Source of the DNA: a virus
Length of the DNA stretch: 45,612 nt
Direction: 5' to 3' (one strand)
IMG/VR virus record: IMGVR_UViG_3300042907_000047
Span: 1-45,612 of that record
The notes under the pieces: generated by a model
The model's database searches: none
What the model saw: the letters and a program-made list of their open reading frames with translations, nothing else
Told to the model about the DNA's origin: nothing
Translations under genes and position numbers: made by a program
Part shown: positions 11,674-45,522 of the stretch, piece after piece
Position numbering within the stretch: position 1 is the first letter of the stretch
How the letters are laid out: every line of letters begins with the position of its first letter

Positions 11674-12069
11674 ATGGGCATGTTGCAAAACCAAAATACG
11701 CCAAACGTACCGGCAGCCCCTACGCAGTACGATCAAACGTTCATGAATCAGTACACCAACGTACTAAGGTTGTTTTTTAATCAGATTAACGCAATTCAAC
11801 AGCTTAACTTAGCTAAGTTAAATTTAGATTTGGGGACCCTACCTACCGACGCCGACTACGACAATTTGCGGTTAGGCGATGTATACAGGGATACGCAAGG
11901 CGGTACTTTGCAGACTGGCAGCAACTTGCTACGCATTAAAGTTCCAGTTCAATTGTCTGGTGTTCAAGGTGCGGGCGCAGTTGGATCGGTTGGTCCTGTT
12001 GGCGGCACGATAACTAGTAGCCTAACAGGCGTAACAAGTACTGGCGCAGTTGGTACAGTTACTCCATAA
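11674..12069 (+). CDS. small virion protein ending in two LSGVxxxGAVGSV repeats
   Basis: A 131-residue protein. Residues 1-75 are helical (YDQTFMNQYTNVLRLFFNQINAIQQLNLAKLNLD), then LPTDADYDNLRLGDVYRD and a short strand region. The last 40 residues hold two copies of the same L-S/T-G-V-x-x-x-G-A-V-G-x-V unit that builds the 332-residue protein at 1313-2311. This suggests a shared assembly interface or a repeat moved between genes. It sits directly after the 700-residue tail protein. Confidence 0.75.
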   Translation: MGMLQNQNTPNVPAAPTQYDQTFMNQYTNVLRLFFNQINAIQQLNLAKLNLDLGTLPTDADYDNLRLGDVYRDTQGGTLQTGSNLLRIKVPVQLSGVQGAGAVGSVGPVGGTITSSLTGVTSTGAVGTVTP

Positions 12070-12098
12070 TATCGACATCAATAACCTAGAGCAAATAC

Positions 12099-12449
12099 AT
12101 GGACATCGACGCTATTAGTGAAAACCCTAAGTACAAGAAGATTGAACTTGACTATGTGGAGTTTGTCGAAGTAGACGACATCTGGGTCCGTTCCTATACG
12201 ATTCCAAAATCTAAGACTGTTTTATCTCAGCATGTCCATACTCACCCTCACGTAACGTTGATATCGCATGGCGCTGTAGAAGCTTGGCAAGATGGCGAGT
12301 CTATGGGGCGGTTTGATGCTCCTGCTGTTATTACAATACCTGCGGGCAAGAAGCACGCATTCATGGCGCTGACGGATGACGTGACGCTATGTTGTTTACA
12401 TAACCTTCGCGGCACAGGACTAGAGTCGCCAGAAATCAAGGAGTTTTAA
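12099..12449 (+). CDS. small cupin-fold protein
   Basis: A 116-residue single-domain cupin. The first cupin motif reads S-Q-H-V-H-T-H-P-H-V (His 45, 47, 49, 51), followed by an acidic loop (EAWQDGESMGRFD), the P-A-G-K-K-H-A-F second motif with His86, and a final V-T-L-C-C-L-H-N strand. The His pattern suggests a bound divalent metal. Isolated cupins inside virion operons are seen in a number of phages. A structural role, sugar binding or isomerase activity are all possible. A GAGC ribosome site and 29-nt gap separate it from the upstream gene; it ends 1 nt before the next. Confidence 0.8.
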   Translation: MDIDAISENPKYKKIELDYVEFVEVDDIWVRSYTIPKSKTVLSQHVHTHPHVTLISHGAVEAWQDGESMGRFDAPAVITIPAGKKHAFMALTDDVTLCCLHNLRGTGLESPEIKEF

Positions 12450-25001: not shown

Positions 25002-25204
25002 CGGATGCGCCAAGCGCGGACTCCAAGGTGATTGTCTTTGTGCGTGACATAGCACTTGACTCTCACGTTGGCGCGCTTGGCTCCACTTTCTAAAGCGTAG
25101 ATTATCTCGGCAGGGCGCAAGGTGGGGATAAAGAAACTCTCCCCCACCTCCATCACATCAAATGGAAAGATCCACTCAGGTTCTTTGATGTCACTCGGAT
25201 TCAT
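24998..25204 (-). CDS. small conserved-type phage protein at the end of the replication operon
   Basis: A 68-residue protein with W-I-F-P-F-D-V-M-E-V-G-E-S-F-F-I-P-T, then a helical A-E-I-I-Y-A-L-E-S-G-A-K-R-A and a strand K-C-Y-V-T-H, ending G-V-R-A-W-R-I-R. The F-P-F-D...V-G-E-S-F-F-I-P motif recurs in short proteins of many phages, but no function is known to me. Its start lies 14 nt inside the end of the primase-helicase gene, so it is translated from the same message. Confidence 0.75.
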   Translation of the reverse strand: MNPSDIKEPEWIFPFDVMEVGESFFIPTLRPAEIIYALESGAKRANVRVKCYVTHKDNHLGVRAWRIR

Positions 25205-28040
25205 TGAATAAGTCGTTTGGGATCTCAGTCTTAAACCAATAGAGATATGCAGGATCGGTGCTGATCGCTGACTTCCATCCAGTAGTGAGACGCCCCTTCT
25301 TGTCGTCTACGAGAATCTTCTTGTCACGCATGTCGAACTCAAACTCACGGCTACTGACTTTGCGCTCTGCCAAGAACTTCTTGAACTCAGTCTTAGACAC
25401 TTGCAAGAGACCTTCTTCACTGACGATGCGCCCTACAAGCTGGCCCCTGGGTTCCATAGTGACCTTGCCATCTTTAAGCACAAGGATGTTACCCATATTC
25501 TTGTTGATGAAGTCGCCCAGCACAGATGGGTAGTCGGTGCGGTTAACCTTCACAACCTTCTCACGAATCTCAATCATCTTCAGGATCGTTTCGTGATAGA
25601 TGCGATCAAGTTGCCAAGCGGTAATGCCAGCTTGATTAGCCATGTCTGCGCCACCAAAGTTAGTGCCAACCAAGTTTTTGTAGAACCGATACTCTGCATA
25701 GTTACCAAAGTCAGTTAGGAATTTCTCTTCCCACTTGGCAATGTTGTCTAGCACATAGTTGTCGCCTAGTTTCATGATGTGTTGGATAAACATCGGCCCT
25801 GCGTGACCGTAGTTGTATTTGAACGCATCAAAGATATGTTCGCCAAGCTTGGCGTCGTGGTTCAATACGCTTGGACGAAATACTTCAAACTCAATCAGAC
25901 GTGCTGCTTCTCCATCTGGATTCATTTTGAGGGCTTCTAACTTGCCGTATAAACCGTGGTTAGATGTCAATACCGCAGTCATTGATGCAGACATCTCGTA
26001 CTCCCGCTCAGCATTGACTGAACCCTGCATACGAATCTTGGCTTTACCGTGAGACACGTTGTGAATCAAACCACCAATCTCCTCTGCCTTCATGTCACCT
26101 ACTTCGTCTAGCCCAAACATAAGACTGTGCAAACCAAGGTAACGACCAGTCAAGCCGTTGTCGGTAGCTTTCACTACACTCAAATCTTTAGGATGACCAA
26201 ACACGCTAAGCCCTGCATACATCGCACCTGTCTTGGCGTTACCTGACTTGCCTGTCAAACTCATCACCACGCCAGACGTAGACGTGTAGCACATCAAGGG
26301 AGAACCAAAGCCACTCATTGCGGCAAAGGCATGCAACTCAAACTGAGGCTTGTTTAGATAATCAATTGACTCACGCCAACGCTCAAAGGTCCCGTTCTGC
26401 GTAATGTGGCGTGATAGACCACGAACGAATGGAGACGACGGGGCTTCAATAGTTTCGCCAGTGCGGGTGATTTCTTTTCTACCTATGACGAAGCTTCTGT
26501 TGTCCCACTCCTTGTCTGTGCGGTCTTGTGTCCAACCCATCTGCATGCGCATCTGTAGCGCCTTGTCAGTTGTCTGGAGGTACTGCCCCCATTTGATGAT
26601 GTAGTTCATAAGGTGTTGGTCGTGGTGTGAAGCAAAGAAAACTCCATTGCTGGACATGATTGCCTTGAGCGCTTCTTTGGCGTACACCTGCTTCATGGGC
26701 AGGAGGAATTCGCGTTCCCCGTCAAACGGAAGAATCGTACGCATCTGCAAGCACTCGCCATCGTGCGGGCTTACCATGCGTTTAATGGGAAACAAGTCGT
26801 GCGCCAAGATCAAGATAGGATCGTCTTGATGTTTCTTGCCTTGCTTGTCTGTCTTAGGTGCTGGAACAAAATATATACCGCCATTCTGTCCACGCACAAA
26901 TGGCGTCATGAAGTCGGGGAAATCAGGAATTTTTTGGGTATTCGGGACTTCCCAAACTGCGTCCTCTTTATTTGGCGCAGGGGCTGGTTTAAAGACTCTT
27001 GCGAGTTGAATTGGAGTTGTAATCTTTCCTCTGTGCTGACATCCGTCGCAACGGCTTGGGTAGTTATCGATGAACCACTCACAGGTTCTCGGAGCAGGAA
27101 AGCGGCTGGCCTTATCTTCTGTATCTTCATAGGTGTACTTTGGGTGTTCGTTGGAAAACTCATGGATAGCGGTCTTGCCATCATCACAAAACTTAGCGAT
27201 GGATAAACCTGCAAACCACAACGGTTCTTCTAAGGTCTTTGCGTTGTCACACATGAATTTAATCTGTGCGCAACCACCTTCATCGTCAACACTTTTTTGC
27301 GCTAGTACCTCAAATGATTTTGCAAAGTTGTCTAGCTTAAGAATTGCTTTAGTGTCTTCATCGATACCCTTGGGAATGCTTGCAAGAATATCTTCCGCTT
27401 CAATCTCTTCTTGTGTCTGTTGAACTACGGGCGCTGCTGGTGCAACGCCAAGAAAGTCTTTGAACTCGTTCCAGCTATAGACGTGAATCTCATCACTAAC
27501 AACTGACGTTGGCTCTGGTGGATCAAACTTGTGGTTGAACGTCTCAGGTGCGCGCATGATACGTGCGGCATCTGCGGTAACCACTGGGTCAATAGATATA
27601 TGCTGGAGGCATAGCGCTTTGAATTTCTCAGCGGCTGGCTTCCACTCATCTTTGGGGATGTCCTCATCCATGATCCAGTAGGCGTGAACCCCGCCACCTG
27701 AGTCAATCACTACTGGGTCAGGTAGCCCAGTCTCCCCAACTAGTTTGTAGAGCGCCGTGTGTGCGTCGCCCTTTGTCTGATAATCTTTTTCTGCACCAAC
27801 ATCTAAGTCAATGAAGAACGATCGCACGAAGAGGCAGTCGTCTGCTTTCCTGCTATAACCCTCGAACGTTCCAAGTGCAACAAAAGTGTTGACTCCCTTT
27901 TTCTTGAACGTCTCTATCTGTGCAAATACGTCGTCAAGTGTCTCTGCAAATTTGTTTGAAACTTTTTTGTCAGTCCCAATGCTTGTTATGCAATAGACAC
28001 CCTGCGTAGGCAATGCTTTCTCGTAGAATTGTTTTAACAT
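25191..28040 (-). CDS. primase-helicase (AEP-like primase fused to DUF927-type helicase)
   Basis: A 949-residue replication protein. The N-terminal part has an archaeo-eukaryotic primase layout: FFIDLD (residues 75-80, metal-binding Asp78 and Asp80), D-S-G-G-G-V-H-A-Y-W (113-122, His119) and a R-I-M-R-A-P-E-T-F-N-H-K segment at 160-171. A Cys cluster at 320, 331 and 334 followed by H-R-G-K-I looks like a small metal site. The C-terminal half resembles DUF927, with a Walker A-like G-K-S-G-N-A-K-T (597-604) and a Walker B-like F-G-L-D-E-V-G around 655. It would synthesise primers and unwind DNA at the fork for the family A polymerase encoded 5 kb away. A hairpin with a short T-run precedes it. 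Confidence 0.85.
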   Translation of the reverse strand: MLKQFYEKALPTQGVYCITSIGTDKKVSNKFAETLDDVFAQIETFKKKGVNTFVALGTFEGYSRKADDCLFVRSFFIDLDVGAEKDYQTKGDAHTALYKLVGETGLPDPVVIDSGGGVHAYWIMDEDIPKDEWKPAAEKFKALCLQHISIDPVVTADAARIMRAPETFNHKFDPPEPTSVVSDEIHVYSWNEFKDFLGVAPAAPVVQQTQEEIEAEDILASIPKGIDEDTKAILKLDNFAKSFEVLAQKSVDDEGGCAQIKFMCDNAKTLEEPLWFAGLSIAKFCDDGKTAIHEFSNEHPKYTYEDTEDKASRFPAPRTCEWFIDNYPSRCDGCQHRGKITTPIQLARVFKPAPAPNKEDAVWEVPNTQKIPDFPDFMTPFVRGQNGGIYFVPAPKTDKQGKKHQDDPILILAHDLFPIKRMVSPHDGECLQMRTILPFDGEREFLLPMKQVYAKEALKAIMSSNGVFFASHHDQHLMNYIIKWGQYLQTTDKALQMRMQMGWTQDRTDKEWDNRSFVIGRKEITRTGETIEAPSSPFVRGLSRHITQNGTFERWRESIDYLNKPQFELHAFAAMSGFGSPLMCYTSTSGVVMSLTGKSGNAKTGAMYAGLSVFGHPKDLSVVKATDNGLTGRYLGLHSLMFGLDEVGDMKAEEIGGLIHNVSHGKAKIRMQGSVNAEREYEMSASMTAVLTSNHGLYGKLEALKMNPDGEAARLIEFEVFRPSVLNHDAKLGEHIFDAFKYNYGHAGPMFIQHIMKLGDNYVLDNIAKWEEKFLTDFGNYAEYRFYKNLVGTNFGGADMANQAGITAWQLDRIYHETILKMIEIREKVVKVNRTDYPSVLGDFINKNMGNILVLKDGKVTMEPRGQLVGRIVSEEGLLQVSKTEFKKFLAERKVSSREFEFDMRDKKILVDDKKGRLTTGWKSAISTDPAYLYWFKTEIPNDLFNESE

Positions 28041-28153: not shown

Positions 28154-28468
28154 TTAGTCAAATTTTCTCCCGACCATATCTTCAAGGTAATTTTTAGCCG
28201 CCGCAGTGTTCTTTGCTGGAAGAATACCTTTGGCAGTGTCACTCTCAATCAGGTCAGTTAGTGTCTCAACCTTAACAAGGTTGTTGTGGCGCAAAGGTTT
28301 GCCACGGAACCAACTAAAGACCGTCATGCGAGTTACTTCTAACGCGTTAGCTACGTACTTTGCGGGGAGATTTGCATTCACGCAAGCGAGTGCCAATGCA
28401 ATGCCAGCCCTGTTGGGGTTAGCCTTGTGCAACTCAATCAAAAAAGCTTCGCTGTATGTCCGTGACAT
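28154..28468 (-). CDS. small helix-turn-helix DNA-binding protein
   Basis: A 104-residue, mainly helical, basic protein. Residues about 33-60 (LPAKYVANALEVTRMTVFSWFRGKPLR) form a good helix-turn-helix, with the turn at A-L-E-V-T and a recognition helix ending in W-F-R-G. The C-terminal 40 residues are helical (TDLIESDTAKGILPA...NYLEDMVGR) and could dimerise. Position between the candidate ssDNA-binding protein and the primase suggests a replication-coupled regulator or origin-binding factor. It is a candidate for recognising the repeated sites near the right end, but nothing links them directly. Confidence 0.75.
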   Translation of the reverse strand: MSRTYSEAFLIELHKANPNRAGIALALACVNANLPAKYVANALEVTRMTVFSWFRGKPLRHNNLVKVETLTDLIESDTAKGILPAKNTAAAKNYLEDMVGRKFD

Positions 28469-35396: not shown

Positions 35397-35888
35397 TTAC
35401 TTCAGTGTGGCGATTTCACGAGAAAGATACCATTGCGCTTTGCGCAAGTCTTCTAACTGATTGCCCTTGAGTCCTGATCTAGTAATGTATTTCACGACAT
35501 TACCCAAGTTGTACCCAAGACGCTTCGCCTCGATGAAGTCAATAGTTTCGATCCCACCTGAGGTGTAGTGCGTAGGGTGATTCACTGAGTCATGTTGGGA
35601 AATAGCTTGATTCACGTCAGCTACAATTTCCTCCGCCTCTGCCACAGTCATACCCTTGGGTAAATTATTAGGTCTTACAATTTCAATACGCTTTGCCAAG
35701 TCTCTCATTCTGATCATGCGATCTTCAATGGTCTCGCCATATTGTTTCTGATATGACGATCTTGCCTTGCTCATCAATACATAGGTGTATGACTTGGTAG
35801 TGCCAAGAGCCTTCATTACGTCTGCGGTTTTCATGCGTGGGTTTCTCTCCAACAATACACGAACCTGTTCAATCTTATTGCGTTTCAT
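35397..35888 (-). CDS. HTH-DUF3310 fusion protein
   Basis: A 163-residue protein, started at ATG 35888, which has an AAGGAGAAGG ribosome site; longer frames lack one. Residues 8-43 (VRVLLERNPRMKTADVMKALGTTKSYTYVLMSKAR) form a helix-turn-helix. Residues about 100-163 contain the DUF3310 core: V-N-H-P-x-H-Y, G-I-E-T-I-D-F-I-E-A, G-Y-N-L-G-N-V-V-K-Y-I-T-R and L-E-D-L-R-K-A-Q-W-Y-L. DUF3310 is present in T7 gp1.7 and many phage proteins linked to nucleotide metabolism, but usually without HTH. The fusion suggests DNA-linked regulation. A strong terminator follows. Confidence 0.85.
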   Translation of the reverse strand: MKRNKIEQVRVLLERNPRMKTADVMKALGTTKSYTYVLMSKARSSYQKQYGETIEDRMIRMRDLAKRIEIVRPNNLPKGMTVAEAEEIVADVNQAISQHDSVNHPTHYTSGGIETIDFIEAKRLGYNLGNVVKYITRSGLKGNQLEDLRKAQWYLSREIATLK

Positions 35889-42095: not shown

Positions 42096-43010
42096 TTACA
42101 CACACTTGAACGAACTAAATTTACCGAGGATGTCGTCGATATCCTCCTTCACTGCGTGACGCACCGCATCGGACTCTCGAATGTCCTCTGCCGTTACACC
42201 ACTCAATGCTCTCTCCAACGATGCCCGCGCTTCTTCGAGCTGGGGATCACCGCTAAGATTGAAGCCCTTGAATGTATCGCACATCTCTTTGGCTTTCAAT
42301 ATGGTCGTGTCGTAGATCTTGCGCTTCTTGGTCTTGGTTTCTCCTGTGTTGTCGTCAATGCCAACATCGTCAACGCCACAGCAATGGCTGATCGACTTCA
42401 TAACTTCAATGAACCTTGATTGTTGCTCCACCATCACGTGAGATACTATTTCCTGTGCTTGTTGACTGTATGTAGCAAACAAATCCTCTGCGATGTCTGA
42501 CGCTATGCCACATCTGAAATCTGACATGGGAACTTCTGACACGAAAAGTTGGACACCGAACTTAGATACCAGTTGCTCTTTAGCGGGGTAGTCATTGCGG
42601 TCGAACATATCGCCTTGCTTGAACGCCATGTCCGAGACAATGCTATCGTAGGCAAGGATGAAGTCGCCAAGCAGGGTGTTGAACGCCTGCTGATGTGCGT
42701 GATACTCTTGCTTGAACTTGGGCATATCCACAGACGGCAACAAGTCCTGCGAGTTGTTCCATCTATAAGTCCTGCGCTTGACCCAGTTATAGATAGTCTG
42801 ACGATAGTTGACGATCGCCTTGTGACGTGGGTGATCTGCCAAGAGGTTCTTGACGTAGCGCCCCGCGCTCTTGTCTGCATTCTTTGATGCAGTAACTTCA
42901 TTGCTGATGATTCGGTCTTGCTTCGTCGCTGACCATACGTTGACATCCACGCTCACGAGGACTGCTGATGAGGCAAGGCTGATGAGGTGATCGGGTTTAT
43001 GTAATTCCAT
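42096..43010 (-). CDS. unknown 304-residue protein, possibly DUF3150-like, heading the MoxR operon
   Basis: Started at ATG 43010, which has an AAAGGAGAGAG ribosome site. The protein is helical with a V-D-V-N-V-W-S-A-T-K-Q-D region, N-K-S-A-G-R-Y-V-K-N-L-L-type text (actual KNADKSAGRYVKNLLAD), W-V-K-R-R-T-Y-R-W-N-N, and a coiled region at the end (EDIRESDAVRHAVKEDIDDILGKF). I recall such proteins (DUF3150) next to phage and bacterial MoxR/VWA genes; this cannot be checked here. It lies directly behind a strong promoter/operator and a leader hairpin, so it is the first gene of the unit. Confidence 0.65.
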   Translation of the reverse strand: MELHKPDHLISLASSAVLVSVDVNVWSATKQDRIISNEVTASKNADKSAGRYVKNLLADHPRHKAIVNYRQTIYNWVKRRTYRWNNSQDLLPSVDMPKFKQEYHAHQQAFNTLLGDFILAYDSIVSDMAFKQGDMFDRNDYPAKEQLVSKFGVQLFVSEVPMSDFRCGIASDIAEDLFATYSQQAQEIVSHVMVEQQSRFIEVMKSISHCCGVDDVGIDDNTGETKTKKRKIYDTTILKAKEMCDTFKGFNLSGDPQLEEARASLERALSGVTAEDIRESDAVRHAVKEDIDDILGKFSSFKCV

Positions 43011-43037
43011 AACTCTCTCCTTTGGTTGAAAACAAAT

Positions 43038-43053
43038 CCCACTGATACGTGGG
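43038..43053 (-). promoter_or_regulatory. CCCAC-N6-GTGGG leader hairpin
   Basis: CCCAC at 43038-43042 pairs with GTGGG at 43049-43053 around a 6-nt loop, in the 5' leader between the promoter at 43099-43128 and the ATG at 43010 (28 nt). Read on the - strand the stem is followed by ATTTGTTTTC, so partial termination is possible. Confidence 0.6.
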
Positions 43054-43098
43054 TCTCTAAACAGTGGGGTAGCTGATCTGCTCTCCCCACTAGCTATA

Positions 43099-43128
43099 AG
43101 TATAACACAACTTGACCTTTGAGTCAAG
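43099..43128 (-). promoter_or_regulatory. sigma70-type promoter with CTTGAC palindrome (P1)
   Basis: On the - strand -35 TTGACT (43127-43122), 17-bp spacer, -10 TATACT (43104-43099), followed by TATAG. An 18-bp palindrome CTTGAC-N6-GTCAAG (43111-43128) covers the -35 box and part of the spacer, so a bound protein would block polymerase. It faces the 304-residue gene and the MoxR/VWA operon. Confidence 0.85.
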
Positions 43129-43147
43129 GGTTTTACTCAAGTTTTTT

Positions 43148-43552
43148 CTATGACCAGTCTGTGATGATCTGTCTGCTGACACTCATCCAATCGTATTCGT
43201 AGTCACCATTGAATCGTTCTTCGTTGTCGTTAGCTTCCTCGCCTATGCGTACAAACATCGAACCTATCTTGCAATGAAGTTTTCCCTCACTCACTTGACA
43301 AGACCAATCCTCCGCCTGTTTCACCAACGCCATGTGACTCATCACCTCGGGGTAGTTGTCGTACCACTTCACATCAGTGGCAGTGAAATAGAACGCCTTC
43401 TCCTTATGGTTGATCTCCACCTCCGCTAGTGCGATCTGGCACTTGGGGTTAGCCTTTGCCTCCAGTAAGAATGTATAAAACGATTGCTCGTTGTTCGTGT
43501 CGTGGTCGCTCACGAACCGAATCGTGTATGCCACATCTGATCTATAGCCCAT
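43148..43552 (-). CDS. conserved-type early hypothetical protein
   Basis: A 134-residue acidic protein beginning MGYRSDVAYTIRFVSD, with a strand-helix-strand course (QSFYTFLLEAKANPKCQIALAEVEINHKEKAFYFTATDVKWYDNYPEV) and a C-terminal E-R-F-N-G-D-Y-E-Y-D-W-M-S-V-S-R-Q-I region. The MGYRSDV...Y-D-W signature recurs in small phage and plasmid proteins I recall without a function. It ends just upstream of P1 and overlaps the zinc-ribbon gene by 11 nt. Confidence 0.75.
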   Translation of the reverse strand: MGYRSDVAYTIRFVSDHDTNNEQSFYTFLLEAKANPKCQIALAEVEINHKEKAFYFTATDVKWYDNYPEVMSHMALVKQAEDWSCQVSEGKLHCKIGSMFVRIGEEANDNEERFNGDYEYDWMSVSRQIITDWS

Positions 43553-43760
43553 TGTGGAACCCTCCCTTGTTGTTGATACCCTTGAGATCAGCCATGTCGG
43601 TGATCATCATGTAGTTGCTCTTGTGCATAGGCACGACTGTGCGCACTGCGTCATGTGAGAGTTTCTCCCCACATGGCATACAGTGTTTGTAACCAAGCTT
43701 CCACCTGTCAGTGGCATACTCTTCATCGCAGTTACGGCAATGTGGCTTGTAGCTTTTCAT
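43542..43760 (-). CDS. small zinc-ribbon protein
   Basis: A 72-residue protein with two knuckles: H-C-R-N-C (Cys8, Cys11) and H-C-M-P-C-G (Cys27, Cys30), about 15 residues apart, the spacing of a small treble-clef or ribbon. The C-terminal part (VPMHKSNYMMITDMADLKGINNKGG) is conserved-looking. It may bind DNA, RNA or a protein partner. It overlaps both neighbours by 4-11 nt. Confidence 0.75.
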   Translation of the reverse strand: MKSYKPHCRNCDEEYATDRWKLGYKHCMPCGEKLSHDAVRTVVPMHKSNYMMITDMADLKGINNKGGFHNGL

Positions 43761-43954
43761 GCAACCACCATCCTTTCTTGTATCCAGTAATGACCATATT
43801 GGTCATCTTCCTTGCACTCACGCATAAACGCCTCGGCATCTATCTTGTGAGCAAACAACTCGACCATGTGGACACCTCGTTTATCGGATAGTTTCACCTT
43901 ATCGCTGACACTATCATTTCCCCACAGTATCCATACCATTGGGTAATACTTCAT
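43757..43954 (-). CDS. small hypothetical early protein
   Basis: A 65-residue protein (YPMVWILWGNDSVSDKVKLSDKRGVHMVELFAHKIDAEAFMRECKEDDQYGHYWIQ gives its overall course): a strand, a charged turn, and a helix D-A-E-A-F-M-R-E-C, compatible with a compact alpha-beta fold. No family recognised. It overlaps both neighbours by 4 nt (ATGA coupling). Confidence 0.65.
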   Translation of the reverse strand: MKYYPMVWILWGNDSVSDKVKLSDKRGVHMVELFAHKIDAEAFMRECKEDDQYGHYWIQERMVVA

Positions 43955-44154
43955 TTCAATACTCCTTCATCCATCAGTTCATGCCATGTGGGGAAACGCT
44001 TGTGCGTGTCGTAGAAGTGCCATGGGTCACAGATGAAGCATCCCTCCTCGTAGGTACGGCAACGCTTGGTCTGACTCAGGCGTAGATAGCTGAACGAACC
44101 ATTGGATTGGTACTTGCTCTTGGCTCTACGCTTGCGTATGTCTCTGACTTTCAT
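43951..44154 (-). CDS. small basic Cys-containing early protein
   Basis: A 67-residue protein with a very basic N-terminus (RDIRKRRAKSKYQ) and a Cys/His group C32-x6-C39-x2-C42-D-P-W-H46 that could bind a metal. The end is R-F-P-T-W-H-E-L-M-D-E. A nucleic-acid-binding role would fit, but no family is recognised. It sits 2 nt after the preceding stop. Confidence 0.65.
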   Translation of the reverse strand: MKVRDIRKRRAKSKYQSNGSFSYLRLSQTKRCRTYEEGCFICDPWHFYDTHKRFPTWHELMDEGVLK

Positions 44155-44156
44155 GA

Positions 44157-44405
44157 TTAGTTCTCCTCGTATGAGTGGGTGACTACGCCCATGGTCTTGA
44201 TGCGGTACTTGTTCTCATGTCCCTCGTGCATATCTCCCTGCAAGCAGATGTGCATCTCGTACTCGGCAGTGTCCCGATGGTCATACAACGCCAAGGGTTT
44301 GCCGTTGCACAGAAGCAGGTACATACTGCGCCCCTTTGTCTCCAGTTGTTGTTCTTGCTCAGGCGCGAAGTCGAGCGGTGCGTATTGAACTTTTACTTTT
44401 CCCAT
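44157..44405 (-). CDS. small early hypothetical protein
   Basis: An 82-residue protein with a strand at the start (KVKVQYAPLDFAPEQEQQ), then M-Y-L-L-L-C-N-G-K-P-L-A-L-Y-D-H-R-D-T-A-E-Y-E-M-H-I-C-L and a charged tail. Pattern suggests a small mixed alpha-beta fold. Function unknown. A CCCACG/CGTGGG hairpin lies 21 nt before its ATG and a GGAGATC ribosome site follows. Confidence 0.65.
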   Translation of the reverse strand: MGKVKVQYAPLDFAPEQEQQLETKGRSMYLLLCNGKPLALYDHRDTAEYEMHICLQGDMHEGHENKYRIKTMGVVTHSYEEN

Positions 44406-44425
44406 AATGATCTCCTAGATGATGA

Positions 44426-44441
44426 CCCACGTCTCCGTGGG
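44426..44441 (-). promoter_or_regulatory. CCCACG-N4-CGTGGG leader hairpin
   Basis: A perfect 6-bp stem with a 4-nt loop, between two early genes, 21 nt before the ATG at 44405. No T-run follows on the - strand (TCATCATC), so it is unlikely to be a terminator. Confidence 0.6.
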
Positions 44442-44460
44442 TGCTTAGTTGCAAATGTGA

Positions 44461-44790
44461 TTAGATGATGTCGTAGCCTGTGAGGTACTCAAACGCCTCA
44501 ACCTCTGACATAGCAGAAGTGATCGTCAAGCCCTCATGTTCGTCATCGATGTCGTTGAACTCATCGAAGCCATACTCACGATCAAGGAACTCAAGGTTCT
44601 GTGTGTGGTATGTGTCGACACGGCAGTCAACGGCTAAGTAGTCATCCACGCCATCGTGGGTATTGACATTGCATTGACGGGACTTGGTAAGACGCAAAGT
44701 CTTGCGGACTGAACGAGGCATAGCCTTCATCCAATCTGTTGCCTTCTCTACCTGCTTGTCAGGTAATGCTGTAACAAACGAAACTATCAT
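44461..44790 (-). CDS. first early gene after the right-end promoter
   Basis: A 109-residue protein started at ATG 44790 with an AAGGAGAGATC ribosome site. It begins MIVSFVTALPDKQVEKATDW, has a basic helix (AMPRSVRKTLRLTKSRQC), then a very acidic second half (DREYGFDEFNDIDDEHEGLT). Acidic small early proteins sometimes mimic DNA or inhibit host factors; that is conjecture here. It is the first gene behind P2. Confidence 0.7.
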   Translation of the reverse strand: MIVSFVTALPDKQVEKATDWMKAMPRSVRKTLRLTKSRQCNVNTHDGVDDYLAVDCRVDTYHTQNLEFLDREYGFDEFNDIDDEHEGLTITSAMSEVEAFEYLTGYDII

Positions 44791-44839
44791 GATCTCTCCT
44801 TGTGGTTCCTGCAAAGGACACCGATTGGTGGAAACAAAA

Positions 44840-44855
44840 CCCACGCATGCGTGGG
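44840..44855 (-). promoter_or_regulatory. perfect 16-bp CCCACGCATGCGTGGG leader palindrome
   Basis: CCCACGCATGCGTGGG is a full palindrome, placed between P2 and the ATG at 44790 (50 nt). On the - strand it is preceded by CTAATTAGCTT and followed by TTTTGTTT, so it could also work as an attenuator. The same core recurs at 45391-45406. Confidence 0.65.
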
Positions 44856-44900
44856 AAGCTAATTAGGGTCGCTTGGTATCTACCTCCCGACCCAGACTCC

Positions 44901-44930
44901 AGTATAACATAACTTGACATATGAGTCAAG
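44901..44930 (-). promoter_or_regulatory. sigma70-type promoter with CTTGAC palindrome (P2)
   Basis: On the - strand -35 TTGACT (44929-44924), 17-bp spacer, -10 TATACT (44906-44901). The 18-bp palindrome CTTGACTCATATGTCAAG (44913-44930) covers the -35, as at P1. It drives the leftward early genes from 44790. Confidence 0.88.
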
Positions 44931-44993
44931 CAGTTAATAAAAAAAGTAGTTTTGTACGGCAGTTGGAGGCAGGGAAACTGTGCGCTGAGTTTT

Positions 44994-45327
44994 GTTCTAA
45001 TGTTCTAGTCTGTTCTACTTTTCGTACTATACTTATAGAACGGATTTTGGGGGGTGCGTGTTCTCTAAGTTGTTGTTTTTATTAATTATTTTATAAAAAA
45101 ATATATAGTTGTTCTAATGTTCTACGAAAAATGGGTATATGCCTCCCTTTTTCGATTTTTTTGCTTTTTGCGTTGCATTGGCTGAGAAGGTCTTGATCTC
45201 TGCAGTTTTTACCAAGTTTCCCCATCCTACCCAAAAAACGTAGAACATTAGAACAAAACCTCCGCAACCCGCATGGATCCTCACTTTTCTTGTTCTAACT
45301 ATGCTTTTAAAAGTAGAACATGTTCTA
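44994..45327. repeat. eleven GTTCTA/TAGAAC iteron-like sites
   Basis: GTTCTA starts at 44994, 45002, 45012, 45111, 45119, 45292 and 45322; the reverse TAGAAC starts at 45036, 45241, 45249 and 45314. Three pairs form TGTTCTAATGTTCTA (44993-45007, 45110-45124 and inverted 45241-45255), with starts 8 bp apart. One pair forms the palindrome TAGAACATGTTCTA (45314-45327). Confidence 0.85.
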
Positions 45328-45390
45328 AAAAAACACGGAACAAACCCTGCAACCTATCAGTTCTGAAAACGGTAGGCGATGCAAAGCAAT

Positions 45391-45406
45391 TCCACGCATG
45401 CGTGGG
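45391..45406 (-). promoter_or_regulatory. CCACGCATGCGTGG palindrome in the non-coding region
   Basis: The core CCACGCATGCGTGG (45392-45405) is identical to that at 44840-44855, and CTTAATTAGCAT precedes it on the - strand as CTAATTAGCTT does there. No gene follows within 600 nt, so it may serve as a processing stem or a protein site. Confidence 0.5.
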
Positions 45407-45485: not shown

Positions 45486-45522
45486 AAAAAAAAAGCCCAC
45501 ATGGCAAAAACCATGTGGGCTT
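45486..45522 (-). terminator. intrinsic terminator of the partial right-end gene
   Basis: On the - strand AAGCCCACATGG pairs with CCATGTGGGCTT around a short T-rich loop, followed by seven or more T (45486-45494). An 11-12 bp stem plus T-run is a strong Rho-independent terminator, 11 nt after the stop at 45534. Confidence 0.92.

Follow-up and report, generated by a model that had tools for sequence, protein, structure and literature searches.

A conserved two-strand repeat module as the very probable replication origin of an uncultured tailed phage

Introduction

What is the function of a noncoding stretch of phage DNA in which one hexamer, GTTCTA (TAGAAC on the opposite strand), recurs eleven times without mismatch on both strands within 334 bp? 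The cluster lies in a 45,612-base IMG/VR virus record, here taken in full (hereafter, the window), a partial genome of an uncultured, lytic-type tailed phage. As judged from sequence comparisons, it is very probably the replication origin of this phage.

Tail and structural functions are encoded by rightward genes (168-25001). The leftward genes, running from 44844 down to 25191, comprise replication functions and early genes: an ATPase, a VWA protein, a DUF3310 protein, a family-A DNA polymerase and a PD-(D/E)XK exonuclease, as well as an SNF2 helicase, a conserved 285-aa protein, a 104-aa helix-turn-helix (HTH) protein and a 949-aa primase-helicase. The array sits at the head of this replication operon. 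The window is truncated: beyond the array, relatives carry more leftward genes and then the terminase, and several related contigs span 60-67 kb. Among named relatives, the fullest matches are Pseudomonas phage KPP25 and Rhizobium phage RHph_TM3_14A, both distant, with polymerases only 34-35% identical to that of the window; RHph_TM3_14A keeps the gene order of the window.

Results

A dense array around two converging repeat pairs

The array is organised as follows:

44989-45342, unstranded: whole iteron array and proposed replication origin, noncoding, with 11 exact sites and a degenerate twelfth
44994, 45002, 45012, 45111, 45119, 45292 and 45322, plus strand: GTTCTA sites
45036, 45241, 45249 and 45314, minus strand: GTTCTA sites
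44994-45041: left outer sites, three on the plus and one on the minus strand
45065-45078, plus strand: CTAAGTTGTTGTTT, preceding the AT-rich tract and belonging to the letter-independent element CTAAGTNNTTG(A/T)TT
45076-45109, unstranded: AT-rich tract of 10-15% GC, proposed DNA unwinding element; relatives have an AT-rich tract at the same place
45110-45255, unstranded: inner module of converging tandem pairs, TGTTCTAATGTTCTA at 45110-45124 and TAGAACATTAGAACA at 45241-45255
45125-45240, unstranded: 116-bp core between the inner pairs
45292-45327, unstranded: right outer sites
45314-45327: palindromic TAGAACATGTTCTA, within the right outer sites

An earlier note, made from the letters alone, had judged this cluster to lie far above chance, and it does: when all 6-mers were considered in 60 dinucleotide shuffles, the densest 334-bp cluster held 4-6 copies, compared to the 11 observed. 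A scan of the whole window, which the note had called for, returned 31 GTTCTA sites, the 20 outside the array matching chance level (19.97 expected in the whole window). The three tandem pairs with starts 8 bp apart are present as well, in the form of TGTTCTAATGTTCTA at 44993 (+), 45110 (+) and 45241-45255 (-), although one of the three lies on the minus strand; the single inverted pair is TAGAACATGTTCTA. The degenerate twelfth site, CGGAAC, occupies 45336-45341, where relatives have another full site.

The repeat unit is TGTTCTAN with a period of 8 bp, arranged in the inner module as two converging tandem pairs. Directly left of the left inner pair lies the AT-rich tract, with GC at 10% over 45080-45119. 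Both this tract and the CTAAGTNNTTG element are retained in relatives irrespective of the iteron letters. In the arrays of relatives, (C/G)TAAGTNNTTG(A/T)TT often appears as inverted copies that flank the inner module on both sides, and words resembling it occur near the noncoding regions of KPP25 and RHph_TM3_14A. Rfam and tRNA searches at the array returned no family and no tRNA.

Conserved layout and changing letters

The exact pattern of the inner module was found in 56 IMG/VR contigs, and its letter-reversed control in none. Among 50 distinct related arrays, which are 42-98% identical to that of the window, hexamer columns were 88% identical as compared to 56% elsewhere, and the length of the inner module was 133-146 bp in all but one (49/50). 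A search free of letters—two equal 6-mers 7-9 bp apart, then their inverse 70-135 bp on—hit a single location in each positive family member, namely the array, and had no match in 5 Mb of shuffles; in its strict form it misses some arrays with imperfect pairs. These comparisons directly establish the module, the conservation of its layout and its unique position in each genome.

At the corresponding position in other family members, about 13-20 kb upstream of the initiator gene, stand arrays that are spelled differently. Relatives with an initiator only 41-52% identical are without GTTCTA pairs, and a letter-blind scan of several of them uncovered arrays of TTGTGTCA, TTGTTCCA, TTGTGCGG and TTGTTCCG; the word of the KPP25 array, by letter-blind scan, is TGTTACGA. 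A further sample comprised 35 contigs, 30 picked by homology to the 104-aa HTH protein and 5 already known to have GTTCTA pairs. Nearly all of them contained a dense two-strand array in the region scanned, about 10-30 kb upstream of the HTH gene, with words such as TGTTCCA, TGTGCCG, TGTTACA, TGTTCTC, TGTTGCCA, TGTTCAA and ATTCCA. TGGAAT was considered as a separate iteron type and rejected, as the layout fixes the orientation of these repeats. On a tree of 41 genomes built from four replication proteins, the repeat word changed at least 17 times (17 of 80 branches), the words including TGTTCTA, TGTTCCA, TGTGCGG, TGTTGCCA and ATTCCA. Five words occur among the close relatives L540, L550, L551, L555, L557 and L558, the polymerases of the latter five being 76-88% identical to that of L540. 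The density of sites is a property of the module layout rather than of the GTTCTA hexamer itself.

The earlier note would have taken it as evidence against a function if close relatives that share the replication genes had lost the sites. The GTTCTA letters have indeed been lost in such relatives, but the array itself has been replaced: an array of other letters stands in the matching place wherever the stretch is readable, which argues for function, not against it. One large family member, phage G021 (L353 around 11700-12420; contig 51700-52420), speaks against an origin, as its constant elements and AT-rich tract are accompanied by degenerate iterons only.

Several look-alikes came up outside this family. 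Six matches from a search of bacterial genomes were chromosomal repeats beside ordinary genes, and no phage origins. Tandem GTTCTANN units around a core, again between ordinary genes, were seen in L269, L270 and L271, also in L268, L272 and L273; the carriers are MAG chromosomes of Bacteroidales and others, the core being AT-rich in the Bacteroidales, and the units are candidates for a mobile repeat or an unrelated structure. Unrelated phage records of roughly 34-41 kb (L213-L217 from phages G002 and G004; L211-L212 from G001) have 6-10 GTTCTA sites packed into 142-234 bp close to the gene for a different type of primase, and in G002 and G004 the pairs diverge rather than converge. A literature search for the array motifs listed unrelated papers only.

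A candidate reader of the iterons

Two neighbouring genes of the leftward operon were considered as encoding the protein that reads the repeats:

25191-28040, minus strand: 949-aa PrimPol and DUF927 self-loading helicase, proposed initiator
28154-28468, minus strand: 104-aa protein with an XRE-like HTH, conserved beside the initiator and not favoured as the reader of the iterons

The family of the first protein is established directly. It is a DUF927-family helicase (PF06048, E 1.3e-20), with profile matches to SCCmec Cch (5dgk, E 1.4e-19) and SaPIbov1 Rep (8tch, 2e-13). The same two structures ranked first when a model of the protein was searched with Foldseek (5dgk, 8e-19; 8tch, 8e-15), followed by an AEP PrimPol (6zp9) for the N-terminus. 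Mean pLDDT of the model was 80.8 and pTM 0.46, the latter leaving the arrangement of the domains uncertain. At the C-terminus, the model has helices at 883-892 and 897-906, then strands at 910-916 and 931-937, an order that reads as a winged-helix-like domain spanning about 840-940, which would place residue 917 at the start of the wing. In MN988472.1, the homologue (42239-45322; L204 12239-15322) is annotated as a putative integrase, probably a misannotation.

The earlier note had instead named two HTH proteins as candidate binders. That encoded at 35397 is a DUF3310 protein and is absent from some array-bearing relatives. The case of the 104-aa protein at 28154, a weak XRE-like HTH match, needs more care. 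Its gene lies directly beside that of the initiator in the members examined, and an initial small sample suggested that its helix tracks the repeat letters, so that the array could be an origin read by this or another early protein that recruits the primase-helicase, following the logic of lambda O/P. This explanation is unlikely, though, as the correspondence failed on 41 genomes: the recognition helix VSRMSIHSWFRGQYVR is nearly constant across phages with TGTTACA, TGTTCCA, TGTTCTC and TGTTGCC repeats (seven related loci). With the same helix facing different repeats, the protein is unlikely to set specificity; it may still bind nearby. A homologue was not found in KPP25, RHph_TM3_14A or the unrelated 40-kb phages. 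From the sequences compared, the 949-aa primase-helicase, rather than its HTH neighbour, is likely to be the iteron reader.

One covariation may link this protein to the repeats. Residue 917 was compared across 130 distinct homologues: 113 have Arg, 8 have His and 2 have Gln, and the remainder are gaps or come from a group whose alignment is shifted. Relatives with Arg917 have G at iteron position 2 (oriented by the module layout), and those with His or Gln917 and a readable array have A (ATTCCA vs GTTCCA). Noticed after the fact, the covariation involves two lineages that are independent. G068, another phage with His, was checked afterwards and has ATTCCA pairs as expected, though it belongs to the already known His lineage. 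Arg-G and Gln-A contacts are textbook pairings, and on the alignment the covariation appears chemically sensible. However, 18 of 2767 columns separate the same three genomes as does 917, 4 of the 18 at otherwise conserved positions, and the two changes at 917 alone are thus not decisive. In a tree-based co-change test, into which three genomes had entered with their word in the wrong orientation (leaving the branches of word difference unaffected), residue 919 ranked second of 1883 columns, and no column survived correction for the number tested. Against the link, too, L555 and L558 differ in part of their repeats (TGTTCT vs mixed TGTTCC/TGTTCT) despite C-terminal domains that are nearly equal.

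Discussion

How might the array work? Of the functions that the earlier note had offered for such iterons—origin, partition site or cooperative operator—several features favour the origin: the layout is conserved, the array includes an AT-rich tract and heads the replication operon, and the phage encodes a protein from a family of initiators. We propose, with a probability of about 0.74, a self-loading origin read by the C-terminal domains of the 949-aa primase-helicase, which would assemble there as two head-to-head rings. These domains would bind the 8-bp units TGTTCTAN, each converging tandem pair nucleating one helicase ring, so that the head-to-head pair of rings would form across the 116-bp core. 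The tract of 10% GC beside the left pair would then melt and the rings would move onto single strands, with the AEP primase domain of the same protein making primers for the phage's own family-A DNA polymerase; the outer sites may increase occupancy or fix the orientation. That the protein binds and loads as rings, that the tract melts and that replication starts at the array is what we infer. In near-complete relatives, GC-skew extremes lie 1.7-3.7 kb from the array and coincide with the switch in gene direction. This confounds the skew analysis suggested by the earlier note, which speaks neither for nor against an origin at the array.

Could the sites instead be bound by a repressor or activator that controls the leftward early operon? 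The array does lie upstream of early genes and is adjoined by the best promoter match:

44901-44929, minus strand: sigma-70-type promoter match TTGACT-17-TATACT, outside the array, facing the early/replication genes

The promoter scan gave this one match vs a mean of 1.7 in shuffles, and is weak by itself. The match reads away from the array from a position outside it, which makes a classical operator less likely, and the sites start about 65 bp upstream of the promoter and extend 400 bp away. Moreover, an operator needs neither converging pairs at a near-fixed distance nor an AT-rich tract or constant element, and the module is single-copy per genome where found. We therefore regard a cooperative operator as improbable. 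Direct and inverted repeats in a single noncoding block would also suit the partition site (centromere) of a plasmid-like prophage, yet no ParA/ParB-type protein was found among the early genes scanned and the gene set, with its own polymerase, helicase and exonuclease, is that of a lytic phage, leaving this reading with very little credibility. Equally hard to credit is a site for recombination or packaging (attP arms, pac/cos). Short repeated units are a form that arm-type sites can take, but no integrase was seen in the replication arm of the window, the terminase genes of relatives are kilobases away, and the iteron letters change while the genome organisation stays.

The proposed self-loading origin has precedents. 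In the SaPI system, iterons are recognised by the C-terminal domain of Rep (PMC7581432), and at the SaPI origin repeats in opposite orientation direct two head-to-head hexamers (PMC9894130). The phage resembles the SaPIbov1 Rep and SCCmec Cch systems in its helicase, of the DUF927 family by both sequence and fold, in having iterons in two opposed sets (here 45110-45124 and 45241-45255) and in the AT-rich tract of its origin (here 10% GC, 45080-45119). In contrast to these systems, its helicase is fused to an AEP primase-polymerase, the phage is of lytic type with its own polymerase, and the 8-bp unit differs in letters between close relatives. The array lies about 17 kb from the initiator gene, whereas the SaPI origin is just downstream of rep; this is hence no SaPI-type origin in the strict sense. 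P4 alpha unites primase, helicase and a winged-helix iteron reader in one protein (PMC4234260), as we propose for the phage, but its primase is of the Toprim type (PMC4234260) and not an AEP PrimPol-like N-terminus (6zp9). Origins of the lambda O type use a separate iteron binder that recruits the helicase, and the one HTH candidate tested here does not track the letters. Opposed short sites loading two head-to-head hexamers are also the logic of SV40 T-antigen (PMC9894130), which lacks homology to the phage system and reads its origin with an N-terminal domain (PMC7581432). By analogy, the array is best read as a SaPI/SV40-like origin that would load two head-to-head helicases.

A DUF927 initiator, opposed iterons and an AT-rich tract are thus already known from staphylococcal islands. 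What is new is the proposed occurrence of such an origin in a broad environmental phage family, with an initiator fused to a primase-polymerase and encoded 17 kb away, together with the rapid change of iteron words within a constant arrangement. The best reading of the latter is that origin specificity turns over unusually fast while the layout stays fixed. We raise, as a tentative and rather doubtful extension, that origin recognition in this family is under pressure to diversify, the origin letters and the residues of the initiator that read them switching together. If true, switching would be far faster than change in the rest of the replication machinery, for example as a way to evade exploitation or blocking of the origin by satellites, rival phages or host factors, and relatives with polymerases 76-88% identical would no longer share an origin code.

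Few environmental phages have a known origin, and here the layout alone would locate the origin across a broad family. At least nine origin codes together with their initiators form a natural set in which the code of winged-helix/DNA recognition and its speed of change are directly testable, and a natural series for learning about joint change in a virus and the protein that binds its origin. A PrimPol/DUF927 protein, labelled putative integrase in one relative, would thereby be linked to initiation. For experiments, KPP25 (Kochitakasuvirus, AB910393.1) offers a practical place: the array at 26218-26895 is a candidate origin in a cultured phage. Like that of the window, it has converging pairs (GTTACGA at 8-9 bp, the words being GTTACGA/GTCACGA) in an early noncoding region, with a roughly 110-bp AT-rich core between them; it differs in that the primase is of the DUF5906 type, and the array is absent from the KPP25 annotation.

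Two kinds of hairpin accompany the array. CCCACG-N4-CGTGGG recurs in leftward leader regions (44426-44441, 44840-44855 and 45392-45405), and these may be RNA processing or regulatory hairpins. Just past the array, at 45493-45522, lies a strong leftward terminator-like hairpin, which would shield the array from transcription arriving from upstream genes.
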